From Mesorhizobium sp. BR1-1-16 (GTDB lineage Bacteria; Pseudomonadota; Alphaproteobacteria; Rhizobiales; Kaistiaceae): a stretch of DNA of 64,000 nucleotides. The translations under genes were made by a program, and so were the position numbers. Shown here piece after piece: positions 36,156 to 49,287 of this stretch (within the stretch, counting starts at the first letter, position 1; each line of letters starts with the position of its first letter). The DNA lies in NCBI RefSeq assembly GCF_020165495.1, contig NZ_JAIUIE010000001.1:186001-250000 (forward strand), written 5' to 3'. The notes beneath the pieces are model-generated. The model searched no databases. It saw only the letters and a list, made by a program, of their open reading frames with translations, and was not told the origin of the DNA.

Positions 36156-37037
36156 CTAGAACAACTCCGGGATCCTGTGCAGCGGCTGATCTGGCTCGAC
36201 ATAGTCGCCGGCCTTCTGGCGCTTCGGCAGCTTGACCTTGTCGACCTTGATCCGTTCATAGGGGACCTTCGACAAGAGGTGGCTGATGATGTTGAGGCGG
36301 GCGCGCTTCTTGTCGTCTGATTGCGCCACGAACCAAGGCGCCCAGCCGGTGTCGCTCGCCTCGAACATCGCATCGCGGGCCCGCGAATAGTCGTACCAGC
36401 GCTCGTAGGACAGCACGTCCATCGGCGACAGCTTCCAGACTTTCTTCGGATCGTCGATGCGCGCTTCGATGCGGCGCGTCTGTTCCTCGGGGCTGACCTC
36501 GAGCCAGTATTTCAGCAGGATGATGCCGGATTCGACCATGGCGCGCTCGACTCCGCCGACGCTGGCCAGGAACTTCGTCGCCTGTTCCTCTGTGCAGAAG
36601 CCCATCACGCGCTCGACGCCGGCGCGATTGTACCAACTGCGGTCGAAAACGACGACCTCGCCGGCCGCCGGCAGATGCGGCAGGTAGCGCTGCACATAAA
36701 GCTGCGACTTCTCGCGCTCCGTCGGCGGTGGCAGCGCGATGACGCGGAACACGCGCGGATTGACCCGCTCCATGATCGCTTTGATGACGCCACCCTTGCC
36801 GGCCGCGTCGCGCCCTTCGAAGAGGACGCAAATCTTGGCGCCGGACTGCTTCACCCATTGCTGCAGCCGCACCAGTTCGATCTGCAGCTTCTCAAGTTCG
36901 TCCTCGTAGGTCTTGCGTCCAAGCTTGGCCTTGACGCCAACAAGGCGCGTTCCCGCTGTCAGCGTCTTGAGGTCGACGCGCATCTCGTTCTTGCCATGGT
37001 CGCTCCTGCTCTTGTCGTCCTTGTTCTTTTCGCCCAT
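36156..37037 (-). CDS. ppk2: Polyphosphate kinase 2
   Basis: PPK2 transfers phosphate between polyphosphate and nucleotides, mainly making GTP or ATP from polyphosphate. The 293-residue protein has a Lys/Asp-rich N-terminal tail, Walker A VLFEGRDAAGKGG (residues 72-83), Walker B VVVFDRSWYNRAGVERVMGF (Asp132), the lid segment PPPTEREKSQLYVQRYLPHLP, and the C-terminal MDVLSYERWYDYSRARDAMF. Single-domain, class I-like. It may help store or spend energy under stress. Confidence 0.95.
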   Translation of the reverse strand: MGEKNKDDKSRSDHGKNEMRVDLKTLTAGTRLVGVKAKLGRKTYEDELEKLQIELVRLQQWVKQSGAKICVLFEGRDAAGKGGVIKAIMERVNPRVFRVIALPPPTEREKSQLYVQRYLPHLPAAGEVVVFDRSWYNRAGVERVMGFCTEEQATKFLASVGGVERAMVESGIILLKYWLEVSPEEQTRRIEARIDDPKKVWKLSPMDVLSYERWYDYSRARDAMFEASDTGWAPWFVAQSDDKKRARLNIISHLLSKVPYERIKVDKVKLPKRQKAGDYVEPDQPLHRIPELF

Positions 37038-37067
37038 CGCGCGTCTCCCATGGATTCAGCGGCTGCG

Positions 37068-37313
37068 CTACGCAGCCTGCGGACAGTCGTCGGCCATAAT
37101 CGAGTAGGCCGCGTCGAACAGTTTCATCGTGATATCGCCATCCATCCGGTCGGGATCGGTAACGGCGTAGTAGATGGCGCGGCGGAGGATCGCGATCGGC
37201 TCGTCGGGATAGGCCCGCCGGATCGCCGCCGCGAGCTCATGCGCGTCACCGGCGCGGCGGGCCATGGCGTCGATCGCCAGTGCCAGTTCTTCGACATGGG
37301 GATCAATCATCAT
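37068..37313 (-). CDS. Small hypothetical protein upstream of ppk2
   Basis: Encodes 81 residues, predicted mostly helical (VEELALAIDAMARRAGDAHELAAAIRRAYPDEPIAILRRAIYYAVTDPDRM). It lies between the RND permease gene and ppk2, on the same strand with short gaps (15 and 30 bases), so it may belong to the same transcript. I do not recognise the family. Confidence 0.62.
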   Translation of the reverse strand: MMIDPHVEELALAIDAMARRAGDAHELAAAIRRAYPDEPIAILRRAIYYAVTDPDRMDGDITMKLFDAAYSIMADDCPQAA

Positions 37314-37328
37314 TCCCTCCTGTCCTGC

Positions 37329-40300
37329 TCATGCCGCCGCTCCGGCCGATCGTGCTTGCGCGGCCGATGGCGGCGGGGGTGCCTCGACGGCCTTCTTGTC
37401 CCGCTTCAGGCCATAGAAGGTGGAGTAGAGCACCGGAACCAGGACCATGGTCAGCAGCGTGCCATAGGTGAGGCCCGCCATGATCACGACGGCAAGGCCG
37501 ATCCAGAAGACGTCCGAAAGCAGTGGGATGACTCCGAGGACGGTGGTGCCGGCGGCCAGCAGCACCGGGCGAAGCCGCGAAACCGCAGCCTCCACCGTCG
37601 CGTCATAGCGATCGAGGCCGCGGTCGATGCCGGCATTGATCTCGTCCAGCAGAACGAGCCCGTTCTTGATCATCATGCCGGCGAGGCTCATAGCCGCGAG
37701 CAGGGCTACGAAGCCGAAGGGCACGCCGGTGACGAGGAGCCCGAAGATGACGCCGGCCAGCGCAAACGGGATGGTAAGTGCGATCACCAGCGGCGGGCGC
37801 AGCGCATTGAACAGCGCCACCATGATGAAGATGGTGATGCCGAGCGCCGGAATCGCACCTGGAAGCAGCGAGGCCTGGCTCTTCGCGCTGTTCTCCTGCT
37901 CACCGCCCCATTCCATGCTGTAGCCGGGCGGCAGCGGCAGCGCCTCGATCTTCGCCCTTACGTCCTGGTAAAGCGTCGGGAAAGTCTTGCCCGGCGCTGC
38001 ATTGGCCTGGACCGTCAGCGTGCGCCGGCGGTCGTACCGGGCGATAACCGCCTCCTGCGGCGCGATGCCGACGCCATCGACGATCTGGGCGAGCGGCACG
38101 CTGCGCGTGTTGGCGATGCCGCGAACGCCGAGCACGTCGATGTCGCCCGGCCGGTCGCGTTCGCTTGCGACATTCCGCATGACGATCGGGATGAGCTCGT
38201 CGCCGTCGCGGAAGGTTCCGATCGGCAGGCCGTCATAGGTGCGCCGGGTCGTCCGCGCGAGATCCTCGCGACTGACACCGGCCCAGGCGGCACGGACGGG
38301 ATTGTAATCGGGCCTGACCTCCAGCACCGCTTGGCGCCAGTCGGTCTGCATCAGCCCTGCATCGGGACTGGCACGCAGAATGGCGAGCACGTCGTCGCCG
38401 AGCCCGCGTAGCACCGAAGGATCAGCCGTGCCGGGGCCACTGATCCTGAGTTCGAATTTCCAGGTGTCGCCGGGGCCGACGCCGAATTTGCGCAGCGGTG
38501 TCAGGGCCGTCGGAAAATTCTCGGTCAGCCAGGGCTGCAACTCGGCGATCAGGCCGTCGATATCGGCGAGGTCACGGACATTGACCACGAGCTGGCCATA
38601 GGCCGAGTTCTGGGCCTCCGGCTCGACCGGCAGATAGAAGCGTGGCGGGCCGGCGCCAACGAAGGTGGCGACTTCGGCGACGCGCGGATCGGCGCGCAGA
38701 TGTTGGTCGATCGCGGCGAGATCGGCCGAGACCCGCTCGATGCGCGTGCCTTCCGGCATCCAGTAATCGACCATGAACTTCGTCATCGCCGCGTCCGGAA
38801 AGAACAGCTTGGTCACGCCGCCGAACGAGCCGAGCGCGGCAATGAGAACCGCGACGGCGATCGCGATGGTGGCAAAGCGAAAACGGATGGCCGTGTGCAG
38901 CAGCCTGCGAAAGCCATTGAAGAATGGCCCGCCAAAAGCCTCCGCGCTTGGACTGCCGGCTGGCTTCAGCATGGCGATGCATTGCAGCGGCGTGACTGTG
39001 ACGGATAGCACCCAGGAGACGAGCAGCGAGATCGCGACGACCGAGAACAGGCTGGCGCAATATTCGCCGGCGCTCTCCTGCGAGGCGAAGATCGGATAGA
39101 AGGCCATGACCGCGATGACGGTCGCGCCGAGGAGGGCCATGGCCGGCTGGCTGGCGGCCTCGATCGCGGCGGCGCGGCGGTCCATGCCCTGATTGATGCG
39201 CACGGCATAGCCGTCGGCGATGACGATGGCATTGTCGACCATCATGCCAAGCGCAATGACCAGCGCACCGAGTGACATCCGCTGCAGGTCGATGCCGAAA
39301 ATTGCCATCAGCAGGAATGTCGCCATGACCGTCAGCATCAGCGCGGTGCCGATCACCACGCCCATGCGCCAGCCGGACGGCACGGTGAGCACGACGAGCA
39401 CGATCAGGATCGATTCGATCAGGCTGATGAAGAAGCCGCGCACCGACTGGTCGATGGTGTCGGATTGCCAGTTGACCTTCTCGACGCCGATCCCGATCGG
39501 CAGATCGAGCATCAGTTCGGCGAGCCTATTGTCGACGGCCTTGCCGACCGTCACGACATTCTCGCCCGGCCGGTTGGTAATGGCGATGCCAATCGCCGGC
39601 CGGCCGTTGAAGCGCATGATCTGGCTCGGCGGATCGACATAACCCTCTCGCACGGTGCCGACATCGCGCAGGCGGATGACCTCATTGTTGCCGCCCTGCG
39701 ATTGCCGGTTGGCATTCTGGAGGAGATCGAGCGCCGTCGGCTGCAAGGCGAGGTCGCTGATTTCCTCGGCGAGGTTGAACGTTCCCGTCGGGACGATGCG
39801 CAGCTTGCTGTCGTTCACATACATCTGGCCGCCATCGACCACGGCATTCTGCGTCGCGAGGGCAGTGGCGATGGTCGCCTCGGAGATCCCGAGCTGGGCG
39901 AGCTGGCTCTGGCGGACATCGACATAGATCTGGCGATCCTGCACGCCCCAGAGATCAACGCGGGCGACGCCGGGCACGAGGCTCAGCTCGCGTTTGAGTT
40001 CGTCGGCATAGGTCTTGAGCTCGCTCGGCGAATAGCCGTCGCTGGTGACGGCGAGCAGCAGTCCGAACACATCTCCGAAATCGTCGATCACTCGCGGCTT
40101 GCCGGCGCCGGGCGGAAGCTCGCGCGCGGCCTCGTCCACGCGGGCGCGCACCTTGTCCCAGATGCCGGGCAGTTCCTCGGAGCTGTAGGAGGCCTTGATG
40201 TTCACCTTGATGCGCGAATGACCGGCGCGGGAAAAGCTCTCCAGCGAATCGAGCTCCTTCAGCCTCTGCAGAGCGAGCTCGATCTTGTCAGTCACCTCCA

Positions 40301-40481
40301 GCTCGACTTCCTCGGGGCTCGCGCCCGGATAACTGGTCGTGACGACGGCGGTCTTGATGGTGAATTCGGGGTCTTCGAGCTGGCCGAGCGTGAAGAAGGC
40401 GGCGAGCCCGCCCATCAGGATCAGCGTGGCCGCAAACCAAGTGACGGTCGGGCGATCGACGGCGAATTCGACGATCTTCAT
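37329..40481 (-). CDS. RND efflux permease (AcrB/HAE-like)
   Basis: Proton-driven inner-membrane efflux pump subunit of 1050 residues, the usual length. It shows the RND pattern: first helix VDRPTVTWFAATLILMGG, two large periplasmic domains, and the helix-4 segment SLGALVIALGMMVDNAIVIADGYAVRI, whose paired Asp-containing motif (here MVDNAIV) carries protons. C-terminal helices include GMMIKNGLVLLDEI. The start at 40481 overlaps the stop of the upstream adaptor gene by four bases (ATGA). Substrate unknown; no outer-membrane channel gene is adjacent. Confidence 0.93.
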   Translation of the reverse strand: MKIVEFAVDRPTVTWFAATLILMGGLAAFFTLGQLEDPEFTIKTAVVTTSYPGASPEEVELEVTDKIELALQRLKELDSLESFSRAGHSRIKVNIKASYSSEELPGIWDKVRARVDEAARELPPGAGKPRVIDDFGDVFGLLLAVTSDGYSPSELKTYADELKRELSLVPGVARVDLWGVQDRQIYVDVRQSQLAQLGISEATIATALATQNAVVDGGQMYVNDSKLRIVPTGTFNLAEEISDLALQPTALDLLQNANRQSQGGNNEVIRLRDVGTVREGYVDPPSQIMRFNGRPAIGIAITNRPGENVVTVGKAVDNRLAELMLDLPIGIGVEKVNWQSDTIDQSVRGFFISLIESILIVLVVLTVPSGWRMGVVIGTALMLTVMATFLLMAIFGIDLQRMSLGALVIALGMMVDNAIVIADGYAVRINQGMDRRAAAIEAASQPAMALLGATVIAVMAFYPIFASQESAGEYCASLFSVVAISLLVSWVLSVTVTPLQCIAMLKPAGSPSAEAFGGPFFNGFRRLLHTAIRFRFATIAIAVAVLIAALGSFGGVTKLFFPDAAMTKFMVDYWMPEGTRIERVSADLAAIDQHLRADPRVAEVATFVGAGPPRFYLPVEPEAQNSAYGQLVVNVRDLADIDGLIAELQPWLTENFPTALTPLRKFGVGPGDTWKFELRISGPGTADPSVLRGLGDDVLAILRASPDAGLMQTDWRQAVLEVRPDYNPVRAAWAGVSREDLARTTRRTYDGLPIGTFRDGDELIPIVMRNVASERDRPGDIDVLGVRGIANTRSVPLAQIVDGVGIAPQEAVIARYDRRRTLTVQANAAPGKTFPTLYQDVRAKIEALPLPPGYSMEWGGEQENSAKSQASLLPGAIPALGITIFIMVALFNALRPPLVIALTIPFALAGVIFGLLVTGVPFGFVALLAAMSLAGMMIKNGLVLLDEINAGIDRGLDRYDATVEAAVSRLRPVLLAAGTTVLGVIPLLSDVFWIGLAVVIMAGLTYGTLLTMVLVPVLYSTFYGLKRDKKAVEAPPPPSAAQARSAGAAA

Positions 40482-41611
40482 GATTTCGTCCCCGCCGCAG
40501 GCTGCGAGGGCGCGATCGCCGTGTCGGGAAGGCGGACGAACTCGCCTTCGGTGAGGCTGTTGGCTCCGGCGGTCACGACCCATTCGCCGGCCTTGAGCCC
40601 ATCGGTGACCTGGAGACCGCCCTGTACGACGCGACCCACGGTGACAGGGCGGAGCGAAACCTTGCCCGTCGCCTTGTCGACGATCCAGACGGCGAGCGGC
40701 GCCTTGCCCGGATCGAGGGGGCGGAGCGCCGCCGGCGGCACGACGAGCTGCTTCGCGGCCTCGCCTTCATCGACGCTCGCGACGCGGAAATTGCCGGCCA
40801 TGCCAGGCAGGATCACGACATTGGCGTCGGGGGATTGGTCGATTGCGATGGTGACGGGGTAGGTCCGCGTCAGCTGCGACGCCTCGGTGCCGATCTCGAC
40901 CACCTTTCCCTTCAGAACCACATCCGGAAAGGCGTCGAAGCGAGCTTCCATGTCGCCAACGAGCGGCACCAGCGAGATCAGCGTTTCGGGAACGTCGATG
41001 ACGGCCTCGATCTCGCGCAGATTCAGAAGGCGCACGATCTGCTGCTGCGCCCGCACCTCCTCGAACACCTCGGGATAGATGGCGACGACCCGCCCGGCGA
41101 ACGGCGCCGTCAGCACGGTCCGGTCGAGATCGATCTGGGCGCGCTGCAATGCCGAGCGCACGGACTCGACCCGCGCCGCGGCGCCTTGCCGGGCGCTGAG
41201 CGCATCATCGCCCCGCGCCTTCGGATAGGTTCCGCTCTCCACCAGCGGCAGGATACGGTCATACTGGTCGCTCTTCAGCTGCAGATCGGCATTGGCCTGG
41301 TCGAGATCAGACCGAAGTCGTTCCATCTCCGCGCGATACGAGCTGTCGTCGAGGGTTGCCACCGTCGCGCTCTGCTCGACCTTCTGGCCGACTTTCACCG
41401 GCAGCGAGAAGATCTGCCCGGAGACGCGAAACGAGAGCATCGCCTCCTGCGCCGCCTTGGCGAGGCCAGGGAATTGCCGTTGGCCGAGCTCGGTCGCGGC
41501 GCCGACCTGGATCGCGGAAACAGGACGCGGCGGAGCGATCTTCGCCTCTTCCTTGTCCGAACATGCCGCGAGCAGCACGAGCAGCGGCAGCGCGAGAATG
41601 ATCGTCTTCAT
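40478..41611 (-). CDS. RND periplasmic adaptor lipoprotein
   Basis: Membrane fusion protein of 377 residues linking the RND permease to an outer-membrane channel. The signal MKTIILALPLLVLLAACSDK has the lipobox LAAC, so it is lipid-anchored. The barrel-sandwich/lipoyl halves (SFRVSGQIFSLPVKVGQKV and VLTAPFAGRVVAIYPEVFEEV) flank an alpha-helical hairpin rich in Ala, Gln and Arg. It heads the efflux operon. A perfect inverted repeat at 41678-41700 lies 67 bases upstream and is a candidate operator. Confidence 0.92.
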   Translation of the reverse strand: MKTIILALPLLVLLAACSDKEEAKIAPPRPVSAIQVGAATELGQRQFPGLAKAAQEAMLSFRVSGQIFSLPVKVGQKVEQSATVATLDDSSYRAEMERLRSDLDQANADLQLKSDQYDRILPLVESGTYPKARGDDALSARQGAAARVESVRSALQRAQIDLDRTVLTAPFAGRVVAIYPEVFEEVRAQQQIVRLLNLREIEAVIDVPETLISLVPLVGDMEARFDAFPDVVLKGKVVEIGTEASQLTRTYPVTIAIDQSPDANVVILPGMAGNFRVASVDEGEAAKQLVVPPAALRPLDPGKAPLAVWIVDKATGKVSLRPVTVGRVVQGGLQVTDGLKAGEWVVTAGANSLTEGEFVRLPDTAIAPSQPAAGTKS

Positions 41612-41677: not shown

Positions 41678-41700
41678 ATTGATATGCGCGCCATATCAAT
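41678..41700. promoter_or_regulatory. Perfect inverted repeat, candidate operator of the efflux operon
   Basis: Arms ATTGATATG (41678-41686) and CATATCAAT (41692-41700) are perfect inverse complements around a five-base CGCGC centre. The size and symmetry suit a dimeric repressor such as TetR or MarR type. No regulator gene is adjacent, so the regulator must be encoded elsewhere. Confidence 0.6.
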
Positions 41701-41835: not shown

Positions 41836-41877
41836 TTGATCCACGTCAATGTCTTGTTGGCGGCATGAAGTATTAAT
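41836..41877 (+). promoter_or_regulatory. FNR/FixK-type box and -10 element of the V-ATPase operon
   Basis: TTGAT-CCAC-GTCAA (41836-41849) differs from the FNR/Anr/FixK consensus TTGAT-N4-ATCAA at one base. TATTAAT (41871-41877) follows. If transcription starts near 41884, the box centre lies at about -41.5 and the -10 is in register, the arrangement of class II FNR-activated promoters. This implies induction under low oxygen. Leader to the first ATG about 32 bases. Confidence 0.65.
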
Positions 41878-41915
41878 GCGCTGCAGCAAGTGCGTTGCGG
41901 GAGGACGGTTCGGCG

Positions 41916-43265
41916 ATGTCTTTGGTGCCGATCACCTATGACCGGGTTCTGTCCATCATCGGCGATGTCCTCAGGATCGCCCTGCCGCCAGGTACGGCCG
42001 AGGATCCGAACGGCCCCCGCTTCGGAGATCTCGCGCTTGTCGGCGACGCCGGCGAGCTGCCGCGCCTTGCTCAGGTTGTGAAGCTTGCCGAAGGCGAGGC
42101 CTCGCTGCAGATCTTCCCTGGCTCACGCGGGCTCTCGACCCGCAGCCGGACCCGCTTCCTCGGCCATCCGCCCGAGGTTGCCTTCTCGCCGAACATCTTC
42201 GGCCGCGTCTTCGATGGTGCCGGCCGCGTGTCCGATGGCGGGCCGGCGCTCGACGACGAGCCGGTGGTCGAAATCGCCGGCCCCTCCGCCAATCCGGCGC
42301 GCCGGGCGCTCGCCTCACGCATGATCCGCACCGACGTTCCGATGATCGACGTGTTCAACTGCCTCGTCGAAAGCCAGAAGATCCCGATCTTCTCCACATC
42401 CGGGGAGCCGCATGACACGCTGCTCGCCCGCATCGGCATCCAGGCCGATGCCGATGTCGTCGTCTTCGGCGGCCTGGGCCTCGGATTCGACGAGTTCTGG
42501 CGTTTTCGCACGGCCTTCGAGGATGCTGGCGTGTTCGGCCGCACGGTGATGTTCGTCAACCAGGCTTCCGATCCGGTGCTGGAACGATTGCTGGTCCCGG
42601 ACATGGCGCTCGCCGTGGCCGAGAAGTTCGCCAGCGAGCAGAAGAAGCGCGTGCTGGTACTTTTGACCGACATGACTGCCTTCGCCGACGCGCTGAAGGA
42701 AGTCGGTATCGCACTCGACCGGGTTCCCTCGAACCGCGGCTATCTCGGCGACCTCTACTCACAACTGGCCCGCCGCTACGAAAAGGCGGCCGTGTTCCCC
42801 GGCGGCGGGTCGGTCACGATCCTCTCCGTCACCAGCATGCCGGGCGGCGACGTCACGCATCCTGTGCCCGATAACACCGGCTACATCACAGAAGGGCAGT
42901 TCTATCTGCGTGGCGGCCGGATCGATCCGTTCGGCTCGCTGTCGCGGCTTAAGCAACACGTCATCGGCAAAGAGACGCGCGAGGACCATAGCGCGGTCAT
43001 GAACACGATGATCCGGCTCTATTCGGGCGCGCGGGATGCCCAGCGCAAGCAGGCGATGGCGTTCGCGATGTCCGATCTTGATAACAGGCTGCTGAAATTC
43101 GGCGCCCTGTTCGAGGCGCGCTTCATGGATCTGGCGGTGTCGATACCGCTCGACGCGGCGCTCGATCTTGGCTGGGCGACCATGGCGGAATGTTTTTCGC
43201 CCGAGGAACTGCTGGTTCGCCAGAACCTGCTCGACAAATACTATCCCGCCCGGAAGGCGGCCTGA
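41916..43265 (+). CDS. atpB: V/A-type ATPase subunit B
   Basis: Non-catalytic nucleotide-binding subunit of the V1 head, 449 residues, alternating with subunit A. V-type B features: SPNIFGRVFDGAGRVSDGGPAL, RTDVPMIDVFNCLVESQKIPIFSTSGEPHD in the place of a Walker A loop (no GxxxxGKT), VLLTDMTAFADALKEV and NRGYLGDLYSQLARRYEKA. It is first in the operon, an unusual position. Start 41916 has GGGAGGA upstream; an in-frame TTG at 41895 is rejected. The symbol follows V/A-type naming. Confidence 0.93.
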   Translation: MSLVPITYDRVLSIIGDVLRIALPPGTAEDPNGPRFGDLALVGDAGELPRLAQVVKLAEGEASLQIFPGSRGLSTRSRTRFLGHPPEVAFSPNIFGRVFDGAGRVSDGGPALDDEPVVEIAGPSANPARRALASRMIRTDVPMIDVFNCLVESQKIPIFSTSGEPHDTLLARIGIQADADVVVFGGLGLGFDEFWRFRTAFEDAGVFGRTVMFVNQASDPVLERLLVPDMALAVAEKFASEQKKRVLVLLTDMTAFADALKEVGIALDRVPSNRGYLGDLYSQLARRYEKAAVFPGGGSVTILSVTSMPGGDVTHPVPDNTGYITEGQFYLRGGRIDPFGSLSRLKQHVIGKETREDHSAVMNTMIRLYSGARDAQRKQAMAFAMSDLDNRLLKFGALFEARFMDLAVSIPLDAALDLGWATMAECFSPEELLVRQNLLDKYYPARKAA

Positions 43266-43267
43266 TC

Positions 43268-43885
43268 ATGGCCCGCATCCCGCTCAGCAAATCGCAGTTG
43301 CGCAAGGAGAAGGAAAATCTCGTCTCCTTCCGCCGTTATCTGCCGGCGTTGGACTTGAAGCGCCAGCAATTGATGGGCGAGCGGGTGCGTGCCGAACGTG
43401 GCATCGGCGAAGCCGAGCGCAAGGCCGCGGCGGCCGCGAGCGAAGCCGGCGCGGCATTGCCGATGCTGGCCGACGAGCGCATCGACGTGGCCGGACTGGT
43501 CACGATCAGGCAGGTTCGGCTTGGCACGCAGAATGTCGCCGGCGTCAAGCTGCCCGTGGTCGAGGCCATCGAAGTCGAGCGGGCGCCCTACGGCCGCATG
43601 GTGCGGCCGCATTGGGTCGATGCCCTGGTGCAGCATCTCGAAGCGGCCATCCGTTTGTCGGTTGAGGTCGAGGTGGCGCGCCAGCGTGTCGACGCGCTGC
43701 GCAAGGCGGTCGCGACAGTGACGCAGCGCGTCAACCTCTTCGACAAGGTGCTCATCCCCGAGACCGAACGAAACATCCGCCACATCCTCGTCTATCTCGG
43801 CGATGCCGAGCGCGCAGCCGTCGTCGGCGCCAAGATCGCCAAGCGCGCCCGCCAGGCACGCTCGGCGTCGGAGGCGCAGCCATGA
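43268..43885 (+). CDS. atpD: V/A-type ATPase subunit D
   Basis: Central stalk (rotor axle) subunit, 205 residues. The N-terminal helix RIPLSKSQLRKEKENLVSFRRYLPALDLKRQQLM and the C-terminal helix ALRKAVATVTQRVNLFDKVLIPETERNIRHILVYLGDAER are the two arms of the coiled coil that turn inside the A3B3 head; the latter motif is diagnostic. It begins two bases after the subunit B stop. The frame opens upstream to 43190 inside the B gene; ATG 43268 matches the family start. Confidence 0.93.
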   Translation: MARIPLSKSQLRKEKENLVSFRRYLPALDLKRQQLMGERVRAERGIGEAERKAAAAASEAGAALPMLADERIDVAGLVTIRQVRLGTQNVAGVKLPVVEAIEVERAPYGRMVRPHWVDALVQHLEAAIRLSVEVEVARQRVDALRKAVATVTQRVNLFDKVLIPETERNIRHILVYLGDAERAAVVGAKIAKRARQARSASEAQP

Positions 43886-45675
43886 GCATCGCACCGATGT
43901 GCCGCGTTACGATCTGTGGACCACTCGCCGAGAAGGAGCCGATCCTCGACGCCTTGCAGGGGCTTGGCGTCCTGCACGCGGTGCCGCTGAAGGCGCCCGA
44001 TCCGCTGGCGCCGATCGATGCGGCCGGGCGACGCCGCGCCGAGATGGCCTTCCGCCATATCAGCGAGGCGCCGGAGCAGCTGCGGATCTATCGCAAGGGA
44101 ACCGCCTTCGACGTCGACGCAGTGATCGCCGCAATCACGGCCAACCGGCTCAGACTGAAGCAGCTCTCCGATCGCCGGGACGCACTCGTGGCGCGCATTG
44201 AGGATGTTTCGGATTGGGGCGAGTTCCGCTTCCCCGAACCGGCGGCGCTTGGCGGTCAGCGGTTCTGGTTCTATTGCGTGCCTGTCAGGCAGAGAACGAC
44301 GCTGGCTGCCCTGGTGCTTCCCTGGGCGATCGTCGGCCGCGCGCCAGACCGGCTGTTCGTCGTCGTGATCGCGCCCGACGAACCGCCTGTCGACTTGCTG
44401 CCGGTGCACCGCGTCCATATGGGCGCGAAGCCGCTGACCGAGCTTCGGGATGAACTCGACGCGGTGGAGATCGAGATCGAGCGGTCGGGCGCCGAGCGGG
44501 GCGAACTGACACGCTGGCGGCTGCTCCTGGCGCAGGACCTCGCCGCTGCCGAGGACAGGGACGCCCGCAACGCGCTCGCCGCCGAGACGCTCGACCGCGA
44601 GGCGCTGTTCGCCATCGCCGGTTGGGCACCGGAGGCGAGCCGTCCCCAGATCGAGCGCTTCGCCGGTGGGAGCCGCGCCGCGGTCGTCTTCGACGCGCCC
44701 GGCGAGGATGACCGGCCGCCGACCCTGCTGCAAACCGCAGATCCGCGCTTCGGCGCCGGCAGCGACTTGACCAATTTCTACACGACGCCTTCCTATCGCA
44801 GCTGGGACCCGAGTTTCATCGTTCTCGTCTCCTTCGCGATCTTCTTCGCGATGATCATGGCCGATGCCGGCTATGCGCTCGTCATAGGCCTCATCACCGC
44901 GTTCTACTGGAAGCGTATGGGCGCGACCGCGAGCGGGCGCAGGTTCCGCATCATGCTGGCGATGATCACGGTCGCATGCCTCGTCTATGGCGTGATGGCA
45001 GGGTCCTATTTCGGCGTCGCGCCACGCAAGGGCAGCTTCCTTGCCGCCATGGCGCCGATCGACATCACGTCGTTCGACGCGATGATGAAGCTGTCGGTGC
45101 TCATCGGCGCTGTTCATGTCGGCATCGCGCTCGCCATGGCCACATGGCGGAAGCGGTCCTCGCTCGCCGCGCTCAGTTCCGGCGGCTGGATCGTCGTGAT
45201 CGCCGGCGGCCTTGCGATGTGGCTCGGCGAAGGGGCTCTCAAGGGCGCGGGGCCTCTTCTCCTCGTCGCGGGGTTTGGCGCGGTCTTCGTCGGCGGTGCC
45301 GCCGGTCGCAAGGTGACCGGGCCGAAGGACTGGCTGCTCAAGGCGGTCGATGGGCTGATGGGGCTTACGTCAGTCACCAAGCTCTTCGGCGACATTCTCT
45401 CCTATCTGCGGCTGTTCGCGCTCGGCCTTGCCAGCGCCTCGCTCGCCACGACCTTCAACACGATGGCGACAGGGGTCGATCTCGCGCGACCCGGCCTTGG
45501 ACTGCTGCTGTCGATCCTGATCCTCGCCTTCGGCCACGCCATCAACTTCGTCATCGGCATCATGGGCGGCGTCGTGCACGGCCTGCGGCTCAACTACATC
45601 GAATTCTTCGGATGGGGCCTTCCTGACGAAGGCTACCCGTTCAGCGCATTCGCCAAGAAGGAGATCCGCGAATGA
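43882..45675 (+). CDS. atpI: V/A-type ATPase subunit I
   Basis: Stator membrane subunit equivalent to eukaryotic subunit a, 597 residues. The N-terminal ~300 residues are soluble with coiled-coil parts; the C-terminal half has about seven membrane helices, from PSFIVLVSFAIFFAMIMADAGYALVIGLI on. The motif ILSYLRLFALGLASASLA carries Arg510, the residue expected to face the ion-binding Glu of subunit K. It also shows AGSYFGV, as in other I subunits. It overlaps the D gene by four bases (ATGA). Confidence 0.93.
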   Translation: MSIAPMCRVTICGPLAEKEPILDALQGLGVLHAVPLKAPDPLAPIDAAGRRRAEMAFRHISEAPEQLRIYRKGTAFDVDAVIAAITANRLRLKQLSDRRDALVARIEDVSDWGEFRFPEPAALGGQRFWFYCVPVRQRTTLAALVLPWAIVGRAPDRLFVVVIAPDEPPVDLLPVHRVHMGAKPLTELRDELDAVEIEIERSGAERGELTRWRLLLAQDLAAAEDRDARNALAAETLDREALFAIAGWAPEASRPQIERFAGGSRAAVVFDAPGEDDRPPTLLQTADPRFGAGSDLTNFYTTPSYRSWDPSFIVLVSFAIFFAMIMADAGYALVIGLITAFYWKRMGATASGRRFRIMLAMITVACLVYGVMAGSYFGVAPRKGSFLAAMAPIDITSFDAMMKLSVLIGAVHVGIALAMATWRKRSSLAALSSGGWIVVIAGGLAMWLGEGALKGAGPLLLVAGFGAVFVGGAAGRKVTGPKDWLLKAVDGLMGLTSVTKLFGDILSYLRLFALGLASASLATTFNTMATGVDLARPGLGLLLSILILAFGHAINFVIGIMGGVVHGLRLNYIEFFGWGLPDEGYPFSAFAKKEIRE

Positions 45676-46118
45676 ACGAGCTCATGGTCATTCTCGGATG
45701 GCTCGGCGTGTTTTCGCCCGTCGGTCTCGGGGCGATTGGCAGCGCCATCGGCGTTGCTGTCGCGGGTCAGGCGGCGATCGGTGCGATGCTGGAGACCGAC
45801 AGCGGCTATGGCCGGTTCGTCGGTGTCGCCGCCATCCCGTCATCGACCGTCATCTACGGCATCGTGGTGATGTTCGCGCTGCAGCGGACGATCACGCCGG
45901 AGAACGGCGCTGGCCTTTTCGCGATCGGCATCCTGACCGGCCTCGCGCTGGCCTATGTCGCCGTCTGGCAGGGCAAGGCCTGCGCCAGCGCCATTTCGGC
46001 GTCGAAGTCCAAGCCGGAGATCTTCGGCCTGGCGCTTGCGCCGGCCGCCATCGTCGAGGGCTTCGCGGTGTTCACCTTCGTCTTCGCCCTCGTCCTCGCC
46101 GGCAACATCAAGGGATAG
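45672..46118 (+). CDS. atpK: V/A-type ATPase subunit K (rotor ring proteolipid)
   Basis: Membrane rotor ring subunit of 148 residues with four helices, the duplicated hairpin (~16 kDa) form. The ion-carrying Glu is Glu129 in APAAIVEGFAVFTFVFAL of helix 4; Gln100 in AVWQGKACASAI matches the helix-3 Gln of Enterococcus NtpK. The helix-2 site reads IPSSTVIYGIV where NtpK has PGTQ, so the Thr/Gln sodium ligands are replaced by Ser/Thr; whether it moves H+ or Na+ is open. The start overlaps the I gene by four bases. Confidence 0.92.
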   Translation: MNELMVILGWLGVFSPVGLGAIGSAIGVAVAGQAAIGAMLETDSGYGRFVGVAAIPSSTVIYGIVVMFALQRTITPENGAGLFAIGILTGLALAYVAVWQGKACASAISASKSKPEIFGLALAPAAIVEGFAVFTFVFALVLAGNIKG

Positions 46119-46127
46119 GAGGCCGGC

Positions 46128-46820
46128 ATGGCAACGCAGCCCAGCAGCATGCCCGCCTCGGCCGGCGTCGAAGCCCTGATCGCGCGACTTCGCGACGAGG
46201 GCGTCGCCGCCGGACGGAGCGAGGCTGACAGGATCATCGATGCCGCGAAGGACAAGGCGCGCGCGATTGTGGCGAAGGCCGAAGCGGAGGCCGAGGCATT
46301 GACGAAGCAGGCGCGAAGCGAAGCCGAGAGCTATCGCCGCGCCGCCGAAGACGCGCTGAAGTCGGCTGCCCGCGACGCGGTGCTGCAGCTCAAGGAGCGG
46401 CTCGTGCGCCGCTTTGCCGATGAGATCGCGGGAGCGGTCTCCAAGGCCATGGTCGACGAAACGCTGCTGCAAAAGTTGATCGTCGCGCTGGTCGGCCGGG
46501 CGCGCGACGATGCGCAGATCGATCGATCCGGGGACGTAGAGATCGTGCTGCCGCGCGAGGCGATCGCGATCGATTCGCTGCGCCGCCGCCCCGAATCCGT
46601 CGACAAGGATCCGCTAACCGCCTTCGTGGCCGCGCGAACCGGCGACATGCTGCGCGAAGGCATCCGCTTCAGCCGCGCCGACGACACGGAAGGCGGCATC
46701 CGCATCGTGATGCATGACAGCGGAATCTCGGTCGACCTGACCGATCGTGCCGTGGCCGGTGCGCTTCTCGTTCATCTCCAGCCGCGCTTCCGCGCGCTGC
46801 TCGAGGGCGTCGTCTCATGA
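46128..46820 (+). CDS. atpE: V/A-type ATPase subunit E
   Basis: Peripheral stalk subunit of 230 residues. A long charged helix (residues ~25-95: DRIIDAAKDKARAIVAKAEAEAEALTKQARSEAESYRRAAEDAL) forms the stalk and is followed by a globular C-terminal domain that caps the A3B3 head. AGGAGG precedes ATG 46128 by five bases. No separate G/H stalk partner gene is seen next to it, although E normally pairs with one. Confidence 0.86.
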   Translation: MATQPSSMPASAGVEALIARLRDEGVAAGRSEADRIIDAAKDKARAIVAKAEAEAEALTKQARSEAESYRRAAEDALKSAARDAVLQLKERLVRRFADEIAGAVSKAMVDETLLQKLIVALVGRARDDAQIDRSGDVEIVLPREAIAIDSLRRRPESVDKDPLTAFVAARTGDMLREGIRFSRADDTEGGIRIVMHDSGISVDLTDRAVAGALLVHLQPRFRALLEGVVS

Positions 46821-47497
46821 GTGGGCCGGAACGCTATGTGATGCTGATGGCGAGCCTCCCGGCCATCCGCTTCCTCGCCGACAAGGCGCTGCCGATAAAC
46901 CAGGCGCGCCTCGGTGAGCGGCTGAAGCTGCTCGAGCCCGAGGATCGCGACGAACTGCTCGGCATCGCCTCGATCATTTCGTGGAACCGGATCGATGTCG
47001 GCGATGATGACGCGGCCTATCTCGTCCGTGCCGAGCGCATCATCGCCGGCATCCGCAGCGCGGCGCTGCGCGACGGCGTGCAGGAGCGTCTCGAGATCCG
47101 CACGGTCATCGCCGCGCTCCGGCGCCGTGCCGCGGGGGAAGATGTTCCGGCGTCGAATTCCGCCTTCGGCCTCGGCCGGCATGTCGAGACGATCCGCCGA
47201 AACTGGGCGCTGCCGGATTTCGGCCTCGCCCGCTTCTATCCATGGCTGGCCGCCGCGAAGGAGAAGCTCGACCAGGGCGATGCTTCCGGGTTGGAGCGGC
47301 TGATCCTCGACGTCACCTGGAATGCCGCCGCCCGTCGAGAATTCGGCCACGAATTCGATCTCGAGGCCGTGGCCTTCTACCTGATGCGCTGGCAGCTCGC
47401 GGACCGATGGGCCCGTTACGACGCCGACGCCGCGGCGCTGCGCTTCAAGGCGTTGCTCGATGCAGCCCTGTCAGACCGGCACGAGGTGAATGCATGA
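46817..47497 (+). CDS. V-ATPase operon protein, DUF2764-like (subunit C-position)
   Basis: A 226-residue soluble protein starting MSGPERYVMLMASLPAIRF. The N-terminal YVMLMASLPAIRF followed by a long helical body resembles the DUF2764 proteins found between E and A in V-ATPase operons of spirochaetes and Bacteroidetes, where they are thought to replace subunit C/d, the link between rotor axle and membrane ring. This is inference from position and the short N-terminal motif. It overlaps E and A by four bases each, so expression is coupled. Confidence 0.7.
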   Translation: MSGPERYVMLMASLPAIRFLADKALPINQARLGERLKLLEPEDRDELLGIASIISWNRIDVGDDDAAYLVRAERIIAGIRSAALRDGVQERLEIRTVIAALRRRAAGEDVPASNSAFGLGRHVETIRRNWALPDFGLARFYPWLAAAKEKLDQGDASGLERLILDVTWNAAARREFGHEFDLEAVAFYLMRWQLADRWARYDADAAALRFKALLDAALSDRHEVNA

Positions 47498-49287
47498 CCG
47501 AGATCGCAACCGCGCGCATCACCGCAGTGCAGGAAGACATTGTCCGCCTGCGGCTGGACAACGCCTCGACGGGCCGGCTTGTCAAGAACGAGGTGGTCTA
47601 TATCCGCCCGGCACGCGCGCCCGATGAGCGGCTGAAGGCCGAGGTGCTGCGCGTCGATGGCGACAGCGCCGATGCGCAGGTTTTTGAGAGCACCGGCGGC
47701 GTCGGGCTCGGCGACATGGTCGAGCAGGAGGGGCGGCTTCTCTCGGTGAAGCTCGGCCCTGGTCTGCTCGGCAAGGTCTATGACGGGTTGCAGAATCCAC
47801 TTGAGGCACTCGCGGCCGGCCACGGACAGTTCCTGCCGCGCGGCGTCGCGGCGCCAGCGCTAGACCAGGCTGTGAAATGGTCGTTCTCCGCCGTGCGCCG
47901 GAGCGGCGACAGCGTCAGGGGCGGCGAGGTGATCGGCATGGTTCCGGAAGGGCCGATCCAACATAAGATCATGGCGCCCTTCGATCTCAGCGAGCCGCAT
48001 GAGATTAGCTGGATCCGCGATGGCTCGGTGACGATCGAGGAGCCGGTCGCACGCCTCAAAGGTCCTTCCGGCATCGAGCGCGAGATCACGCTGGCGCAGG
48101 ACTGGCCGGTGCGCGAGCCGCTGCCGCGTCGGCTGATCGCCAGCGGCGTGGCAGCGCGGCTTTATCCCGACGCGCCGATGATCACCACGCAGCGCATCGT
48201 CGATGTGTTCTTCCCGATCGTTCAGGGCGGCGCCGCCTGCATTCCCGGCCCGTTCGGAGCCGGCAAGACCGTGCTGCTGAACCTCATCGCGCGTCACAGC
48301 GACGTCGACGTCGTCATCCTCGTCGCCTGCGGCGAGCGCGCCGGCGAAGTGGTCGAGACGATCACCGAGTTTCCCCAATTGAAGGACCCGCGCACGGGTG
48401 GTTCGCTGATGGACCGCACGGTCATCATCTGTAATACCTCCTCGATGCCGGTCGCCTCGCGCGAGGCCTCGATCTATACCGGGATCACCATCGGTGAATA
48501 TTACCGCCAGATGGGCCTCAGGGCGCTGGTCATCGCGGATTCCACCTCGCGCTGGGCGCAGGCGATGCGCGAGACCTCCGGCCGTCTCGAGGAAATTCCG
48601 GGCGAGGAGGCCTTTCCCGCCTATCTCGACAGCGCCATCAAGGGTGTCTACGAGCGCGCCGGCGTGATGCGTACCGCCGATGGCTCGGTCGGCGCGTTGA
48701 CGATCATCGGTTCGGTGTCGCCCGCCGGCGGTAATTTCGAGGAACCGGTGACGCAATCGACACTCGCAGCCGTCAAGTGCTTCCTGGGGCTCTCCTACGA
48801 CCGTGCATACAAGCGGTTCTATCCGGCCATCGATCCGCTGATCTCCTGGTCGCGCTATCGCCAGCAGCTTGCCGCCTGGTCGGCGAAAACGCTCGGCGAT
48901 GATTGGGCGGGCAAGGTCGAGGCCATGATGGCGCTGCTCGTCCGCGGCGACGAGGTAGCGCGCATGGAGCAGGTGACCGGCGAGGAGGGGATCAGCCTCG
49001 AGGATTTCGTCGCCTCCGAGGCGGCGCGTTTCCTCGACATGGTGTTCCTGCAGCAGGACGCCTATGACGCGATCGATTCCTCCTCGTCGATCGAACGCCA
49101 GCGCGAGCTGTTCGGTCGCGTGCACCGGATCTGCGCCCGCGACCGATCCTTCGCTGACAAGGACGCGGCGCGACAGCATTTCACCAAGCTGACGGGGCTG
49201 TTCAAGAACTTCAACTACGCCGCCCTCGGCTCGCCGGAAGCAGAGCGGTTGCTCAAGGAGATCGATGCGCTCGACGCGACAACGTGA
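47494..49287 (+). CDS. atpA: V/A-type ATPase catalytic subunit A
   Basis: Catalytic ATP-hydrolysing subunit, 597 residues. Walker A reads GPFGAGKT (residues 252-259) in the V-type form with Phe-Gly; ACGERAGEVVETITEFPQL contains the catalytic Glu; ALVIADSTSRWAQAMRETSGRLEEIPGEEAFPAYL is the Walker B and arginine-adjacent region. The V-type insertion before the nucleotide domain (residues ~115-190: KWSFSAVRRSGDSVRGG...) is present, excluding an F-type beta subunit. ATG 47494 overlaps the previous stop (ATGA). It closes the operon. Confidence 0.95.
   Translation: MTEIATARITAVQEDIVRLRLDNASTGRLVKNEVVYIRPARAPDERLKAEVLRVDGDSADAQVFESTGGVGLGDMVEQEGRLLSVKLGPGLLGKVYDGLQNPLEALAAGHGQFLPRGVAAPALDQAVKWSFSAVRRSGDSVRGGEVIGMVPEGPIQHKIMAPFDLSEPHEISWIRDGSVTIEEPVARLKGPSGIEREITLAQDWPVREPLPRRLIASGVAARLYPDAPMITTQRIVDVFFPIVQGGAACIPGPFGAGKTVLLNLIARHSDVDVVILVACGERAGEVVETITEFPQLKDPRTGGSLMDRTVIICNTSSMPVASREASIYTGITIGEYYRQMGLRALVIADSTSRWAQAMRETSGRLEEIPGEEAFPAYLDSAIKGVYERAGVMRTADGSVGALTIIGSVSPAGGNFEEPVTQSTLAAVKCFLGLSYDRAYKRFYPAIDPLISWSRYRQQLAAWSAKTLGDDWAGKVEAMMALLVRGDEVARMEQVTGEEGISLEDFVASEAARFLDMVFLQQDAYDAIDSSSSIERQRELFGRVHRICARDRSFADKDAARQHFTKLTGLFKNFNYAALGSPEAERLLKEIDALDATT

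Follow-up and report, generated by a model that had tools for sequence, protein, structure and literature searches.

A conserved predicted FixK site precedes, and probably controls, a V-type ATPase operon in Kaistia

Many proteobacteria possess a second rotary ATPase, one of V type. In organisms with two ATPases, the V-type one often serves to pump Na+ (PMC9006882). In the hFixL-FxkR-FixK relay of Rhizobium leguminosarum and R. etli, the K-box has the consensus GTTACA-N4-GTTACA and anaeroboxes are published at -32 to -34 (PMC7888657). The mechanism of this switch is already known, but the V-ATPase operon described here is apparently a FixK target not described before. A literature search, with most subscription journals outside its scope, found no paper joining a V-ATPase with FixK or FnrL control.

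The stretch of DNA analysed (64,000 nt; hereafter the window) comes from a genome that belongs to Kaistia. The original prediction had been that an FNR/FixK-type box, with nine of ten consensus positions, stands before a V-ATPase operon. Both parts were confirmed: the box lies at 41836-41849 and is followed by genes for subunits B, D, I, K, E, a DUF2764 (C-like) protein and A. The features, in window coordinates, are:

40478..41611, minus strand: divergent membrane-fusion protein (MFP), first gene of the RND efflux/PPK2 operon; context, outside the switch
41836..41849, plus strand: predicted FixK anaerobox TTGATCCACGTCAA, read from the sequence; 5/5 Kaistia orthologues have it 69-80 nt before the B start codon
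41871..41877, plus strand: TATTAAT, a candidate -10 at the spacing of a class II promoter, read from the sequence; P 0.21 alone
41884, plus strand: predicted transcription start (box centre + 41.5), placed from the box position
41900..41905, plus strand: GGAGGA, probable ribosome-binding site, read from the sequence
41916..43265, plus strand: V-type ATPase subunit B (PRK02118 family), sequence match
43268..43885, plus strand: V-type ATPase subunit D; the ORF opens at 43190 and the start was set at MARIPLSKSQ
43882..45675, plus strand: V-type ATPase subunit I, sequence match
45672..46118, plus strand: V-type ATPase subunit K (rotor ring, 148 aa); Na+ ligands mostly conserved
46128..46820, plus strand: V-type ATPase subunit E, sequence match
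46817..47497, plus strand: DUF2764 protein in place of subunit C; presumed subunit role from operon position
47494..49287, plus strand: V-type ATPase catalytic subunit A, sequence match

The box matches TTGAT-N4-ATCAA at 9/10 positions, its right half being the weaker GTCAA. Sites with at most one mismatch to the consensus numbered two in the 64-kb window, against 0.95 expected from a Markov model, and the same model gave a chance of 0.027 for such a site in the 304-nt intergenic region before B. With an intergenic chance of ~3%, the match in a single genome is only suggestive, and its weight comes from conservation.

A search of 13 further Kaistia genomes found the B gene at 88% identity in four, the remaining nine giving distant matches only. 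A box precedes B in all five operon-bearing Kaistia (TTGATCCACGTCAA, TTGATCAGCATCAA, TTGATATACATCAA, CTGATCTAGGTCAA and TTGATGAAGGTCAA) at a nearly constant distance of 69-80 nt from the ATG. These boxes have the form TTGAT-N4-RTCAA, one copy with one mismatch, and those of two relatives match the consensus at 10/10 positions. TG directly follows the box on its 3' side in 4/5 Kaistia, which agrees with the extended anaerobox motif published as TTGANCNNGATCAANG (PMC4999443). The flanks are otherwise hardly alignable, with 2/104 box-anchored flanking columns identical in all five. Since identity in the box columns is partly a product of anchoring on the box, a shuffle test was taken as the fair measure: the probability of a site as good as the box within 200 nt was 0.0015, 0.0005, 0.1065 and 0.0175 for the four relatives, whose product, ~1e-9 if independent, is overstated by shared ancestry, though the flanks are nearly saturated. 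Exact box sites number about 20-35 per 5-Mb genome in the four relatives. While about one such site is expected per 64 kb, the box recurs at one position in five divergent upstream regions, and a chance match without regulatory role is extremely improbable. A CTAGAGG-like element, which might be another site or a remnant of sequence similarity, lies 16-24 nt upstream of the box in 4/5 Kaistia (L006-L010).

Conservation before orthologous operons held for 5/5 Kaistia and largely failed beyond them: the nearest outgroup, G057, has no box upstream of B despite an 82% identical B protein, and most orthologous V-ATPase upstream regions in other genera are without one, so that the FixK switch is firmly supported in Kaistia only. 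On the same ground, a general low-oxygen box before the V-ATPases of all bacteria was rejected. At least nine matches occurred in 6/79 upstream regions of other genomes, two of the six being Kaistia, whereas five permuted versions of the pattern, used as controls, reached that score in 0-1 regions. TGATCCAGGTCAT, matching the consensus at 8/10 positions, recurs in upstreams of Roseibium type; also, TGATYCARGTCAT, an imperfect FNR-like site, is common to L049, L050, L052, L053 and L100 (Roseibium/Labrenzia), 140-210 nt before the V-ATPase operon.

The hexamer TATTAAT was said to lie where a class II promoter needs its -10 element. It is present there, and the start predicted at 41884 falls 32 nt before the B ATG at 41916, but the hexamer by itself scores P 0.21 against chance in the source genome, and better -10 hexamers in two Kaistia relatives begin at 39, several bases further downstream. 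We therefore grade the class II arrangement of box and -10 as likely at most. Counted from the start of the box, hexamer onset is at 35 nt for TATTAA, 35 for TAGAAG (CBS gene) and 36 for CATAAG (xfp). The published -32 to -34 positions fit the box here if the right edge of the box is meant (PMC7888657); no published FixK2 class II spacing was found in the literature search. FixK might, alternatively, bind the box as a repressor, the box overlapping or following a separate promoter, and so turn the V-ATPase off at low oxygen. FNR-type boxes near a start site are able to repress (PMC7888657), and several orthologues have TATAAT-, TATATT- or GATAAT-like hexamers immediately upstream of the box. 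These hexamers, however, are without a fitting -35, sigma-70-like sites appeared in our scan only about 150 nt further upstream, and the same box-to-hexamer spacing is found at the CBS gene and xfp, both expected low-oxygen targets, all of which makes repression unlikely.

The box could serve, instead of or besides the V-ATPase, the divergent operon, whose gene order (MFP, RND pump, small protein and PPK2; window 36156-41611) is kept in 5/5 Kaistia and whose PPK2 would be plausible in a low-energy response. This seems very unlikely, given that the distance from the box to the likely MFP starts varies and is longer, whereas that to the V-ATPase start is near constant, and we retain the V-ATPase operon as the likely target. 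In K. dalseonensis and other relatives, RND and PPK2 are separated by a SulP permease gene, which is missing in the source genome. Before the MFP-RND operon, at 41678-41698, lies a near-palindrome, TTGATATGCGCGCCATATCAA, which overlaps a sigma-70-like promoter match and is possibly a repressor operator; the upstream regions of the other four Kaistia showed no counterpart. At the alphaproteobacterial loci L043, L062, L066, L088 and L154, DUF3141, fabI, pta or ackA adjoin V-ATPase operons.

A search of the genome for Crp-type HTH proteins gave ten clear family members, only one of which (C27:22123-22872) has the FNR/FixK recognition helix E-x2-S-R (GLTIETVSR). Its best PDB match is Bradyrhizobium FixK2 (4i2o, E 5e-35; FNR about 2e-23), and it is without a 4-cysteine cluster, with one Cys in the N-terminal half; a cysteine cluster is the criterion separating FNR from FixK in PMC2908626. 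Judged by its sequence, the product is FixK. Because no cysteine-bearing FNR was found among the Crp/Fnr proteins of the genome, we assign the regulator as FixK and not FNR/FnrL; the FNR/FixK-type control originally proposed thus keeps its FixK side, with both box and gene, and loses its FNR/FnrL side. FNR/FnrL or DNR as the regulator was rejected, no such protein having been found in the genome. Were a NO- or redox-responsive DNR/NnrR protein to read the box, the signal would be other than oxygen, and sequence does not tell FNR, FixK and DNR sites apart (PMC2908626), but in the genome search FixK alone showed the E-x2-S-R helix, and the likelihood is exceedingly small.

FixK is accompanied by what look like its upstream partners. 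A hybrid FixL kinase gene lies 30 nt downstream of fixK in an apparent operon; the PAS part of this kinase hits FixL at E 5.6e-44, in an alignment that covers the segment around the heme-ligand His and Arg220, and the domains of the protein, predicted heme-PAS, HisKA, HATPase_c and a C-terminal Response_reg, have the hybrid FixL architecture. A gene for an OmpR-type response regulator (receiver and Trans_reg_C), a putative FxkR, runs divergently to fixK, and the spacer before fixK holds a candidate K-box, GTCACACTCTGTTACG (10/12; 10-11/12 in six Kaistia genomes). FixK adjoins a FixL-like kinase in 5/5 operon-bearing Kaistia; the relative G008, which is without the source-type fixK cluster, carries a distinct FixK (38%) next to a FixL-like kinase. 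Together these genes would form a complete-looking hFixL-FxkR-FixK oxygen relay with the anatomy of the rhizobial one.

TTGAT-N4-RTCAA occurs at 13 places in the genome. Boxes precede the known FixK targets ccoN (TTGATCCTGATCAA) and ccoG (TTGACGCAGGTCAA, a TTGAC variant), at the ccoNOQP and ccoGHIS operons respectively; another, TTGATCGTGATCAA, lies between ackA and the CBS-BON gene that neighbours the fixK cluster, while TTGATCGGGATCAA stands before the phosphoketolase gene xfp. Several other such sites are inside open reading frames, probably by chance.

Aligned to NtpK (E. hirae numbering), subunit K has Leu61 replaced by Ile, Thr64 by Ser and Gln65 by Thr, and keeps Gln110, Glu139 and Y68; a database alignment agrees. 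Thr67 of I. tartaricus answers to Gln65 of E. hirae (PMC2359735), and by this correspondence Na+ coupling is plausible for the Kaistia enzyme, whose subunit K has Thr in that column. With most Na+ ligands kept, the V-ATPase is likely, as far as residues can tell, to be an ATP-driven Na+ pump. V-ATPase operons lie near DUF3141, pta, ackA or fabI genes in G057, Stappia, Jannaschia, Pelagibius and Tateyamaria, neighbourhoods that would suit a low-energy role of the enzyme, as would the divergent RND-PPK2 operon in Kaistia.

The box kept in 5/5 Kaistia, together with its match to a FixK site, indicates that the V-ATPase is probably turned on at low oxygen. We consider it quite probable that the box is a FixK operator through which a FixL-FxkR-FixK relay activates the V-ATPase at low oxygen in class II fashion, for the export of ions, most likely Na+. 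When oxygen falls, the hybrid FixL (heme-PAS kinase and receiver) would signal to the OmpR-type, FxkR-kind regulator, which would bind the K-box and raise fixK transcription; FixK, bound to the anaerobox some 41 nt before the V-ATPase start site, would then recruit RNA polymerase class II-wise and switch on cbb3 oxidase, acetate kinase and phosphoketolase along with the V-ATPase. The latter would break down ATP, some of it made by substrate-level phosphorylation, and thereby export ions, of which Na+ is the likeliest. FixK binding, activation rather than repression, the oxygen response, Na+ coupling and the direction of pumping are what we infer in this proposal. More tentatively, and with considerable doubt, the relay may turn on a Na+-exporting V-ATPase, phosphoketolase and acetate kinase to keep ion homeostasis under failing respiration; the ATP would come from acetyl phosphate, perhaps also from polyphosphate, and the process would be uncoupled from the F-type ATP synthase. 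The conserved FixK site supplies a testable condition, low oxygen, for V-ATPase production in Kaistia, and groups the enzyme with cbb3 oxidase, phosphoketolase and acetate kinase as members of one predicted regulon.

Among described systems, Halomonas elongata likewise is a proteobacterium with a second, V-type ATPase beside its F-type ATPase, but that enzyme is discussed for salinity, not oxygen, and its ion specificity is left undecided (PMC9006882). The Enterococcus hirae Na+-V-ATPase (NtpK, 2bl2) resembles that of Kaistia in the two-hairpin K subunit with E139, Q110 and Y68 kept and T64 changed to S, and differs in that Kaistia K has Thr for Gln65 and Ile for Leu61, a B-D-I-K-E-C-A gene order and predicted control by a FixK box. 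The FnrL/FixK regulons of alphaproteobacteria use the same box and share the core cco targets, and no V-ATPase target was found in the searched passages of these reconstructions (PMC2908626, PMC4999443). Closest is the hFixL-FxkR-FixK relay of Rhizobium leguminosarum and R. etli, with the same operon-like pair of fixK and hybrid FixL, adjoining OmpR-type regulator, K-box before fixK (a candidate one in Kaistia) and anaerobox before fixNOQP and fixGHIS (PMC7888657). Kaistia differs from it in that FnrN was not detected and that a V-type ATPase operon is, by our prediction, an added target.
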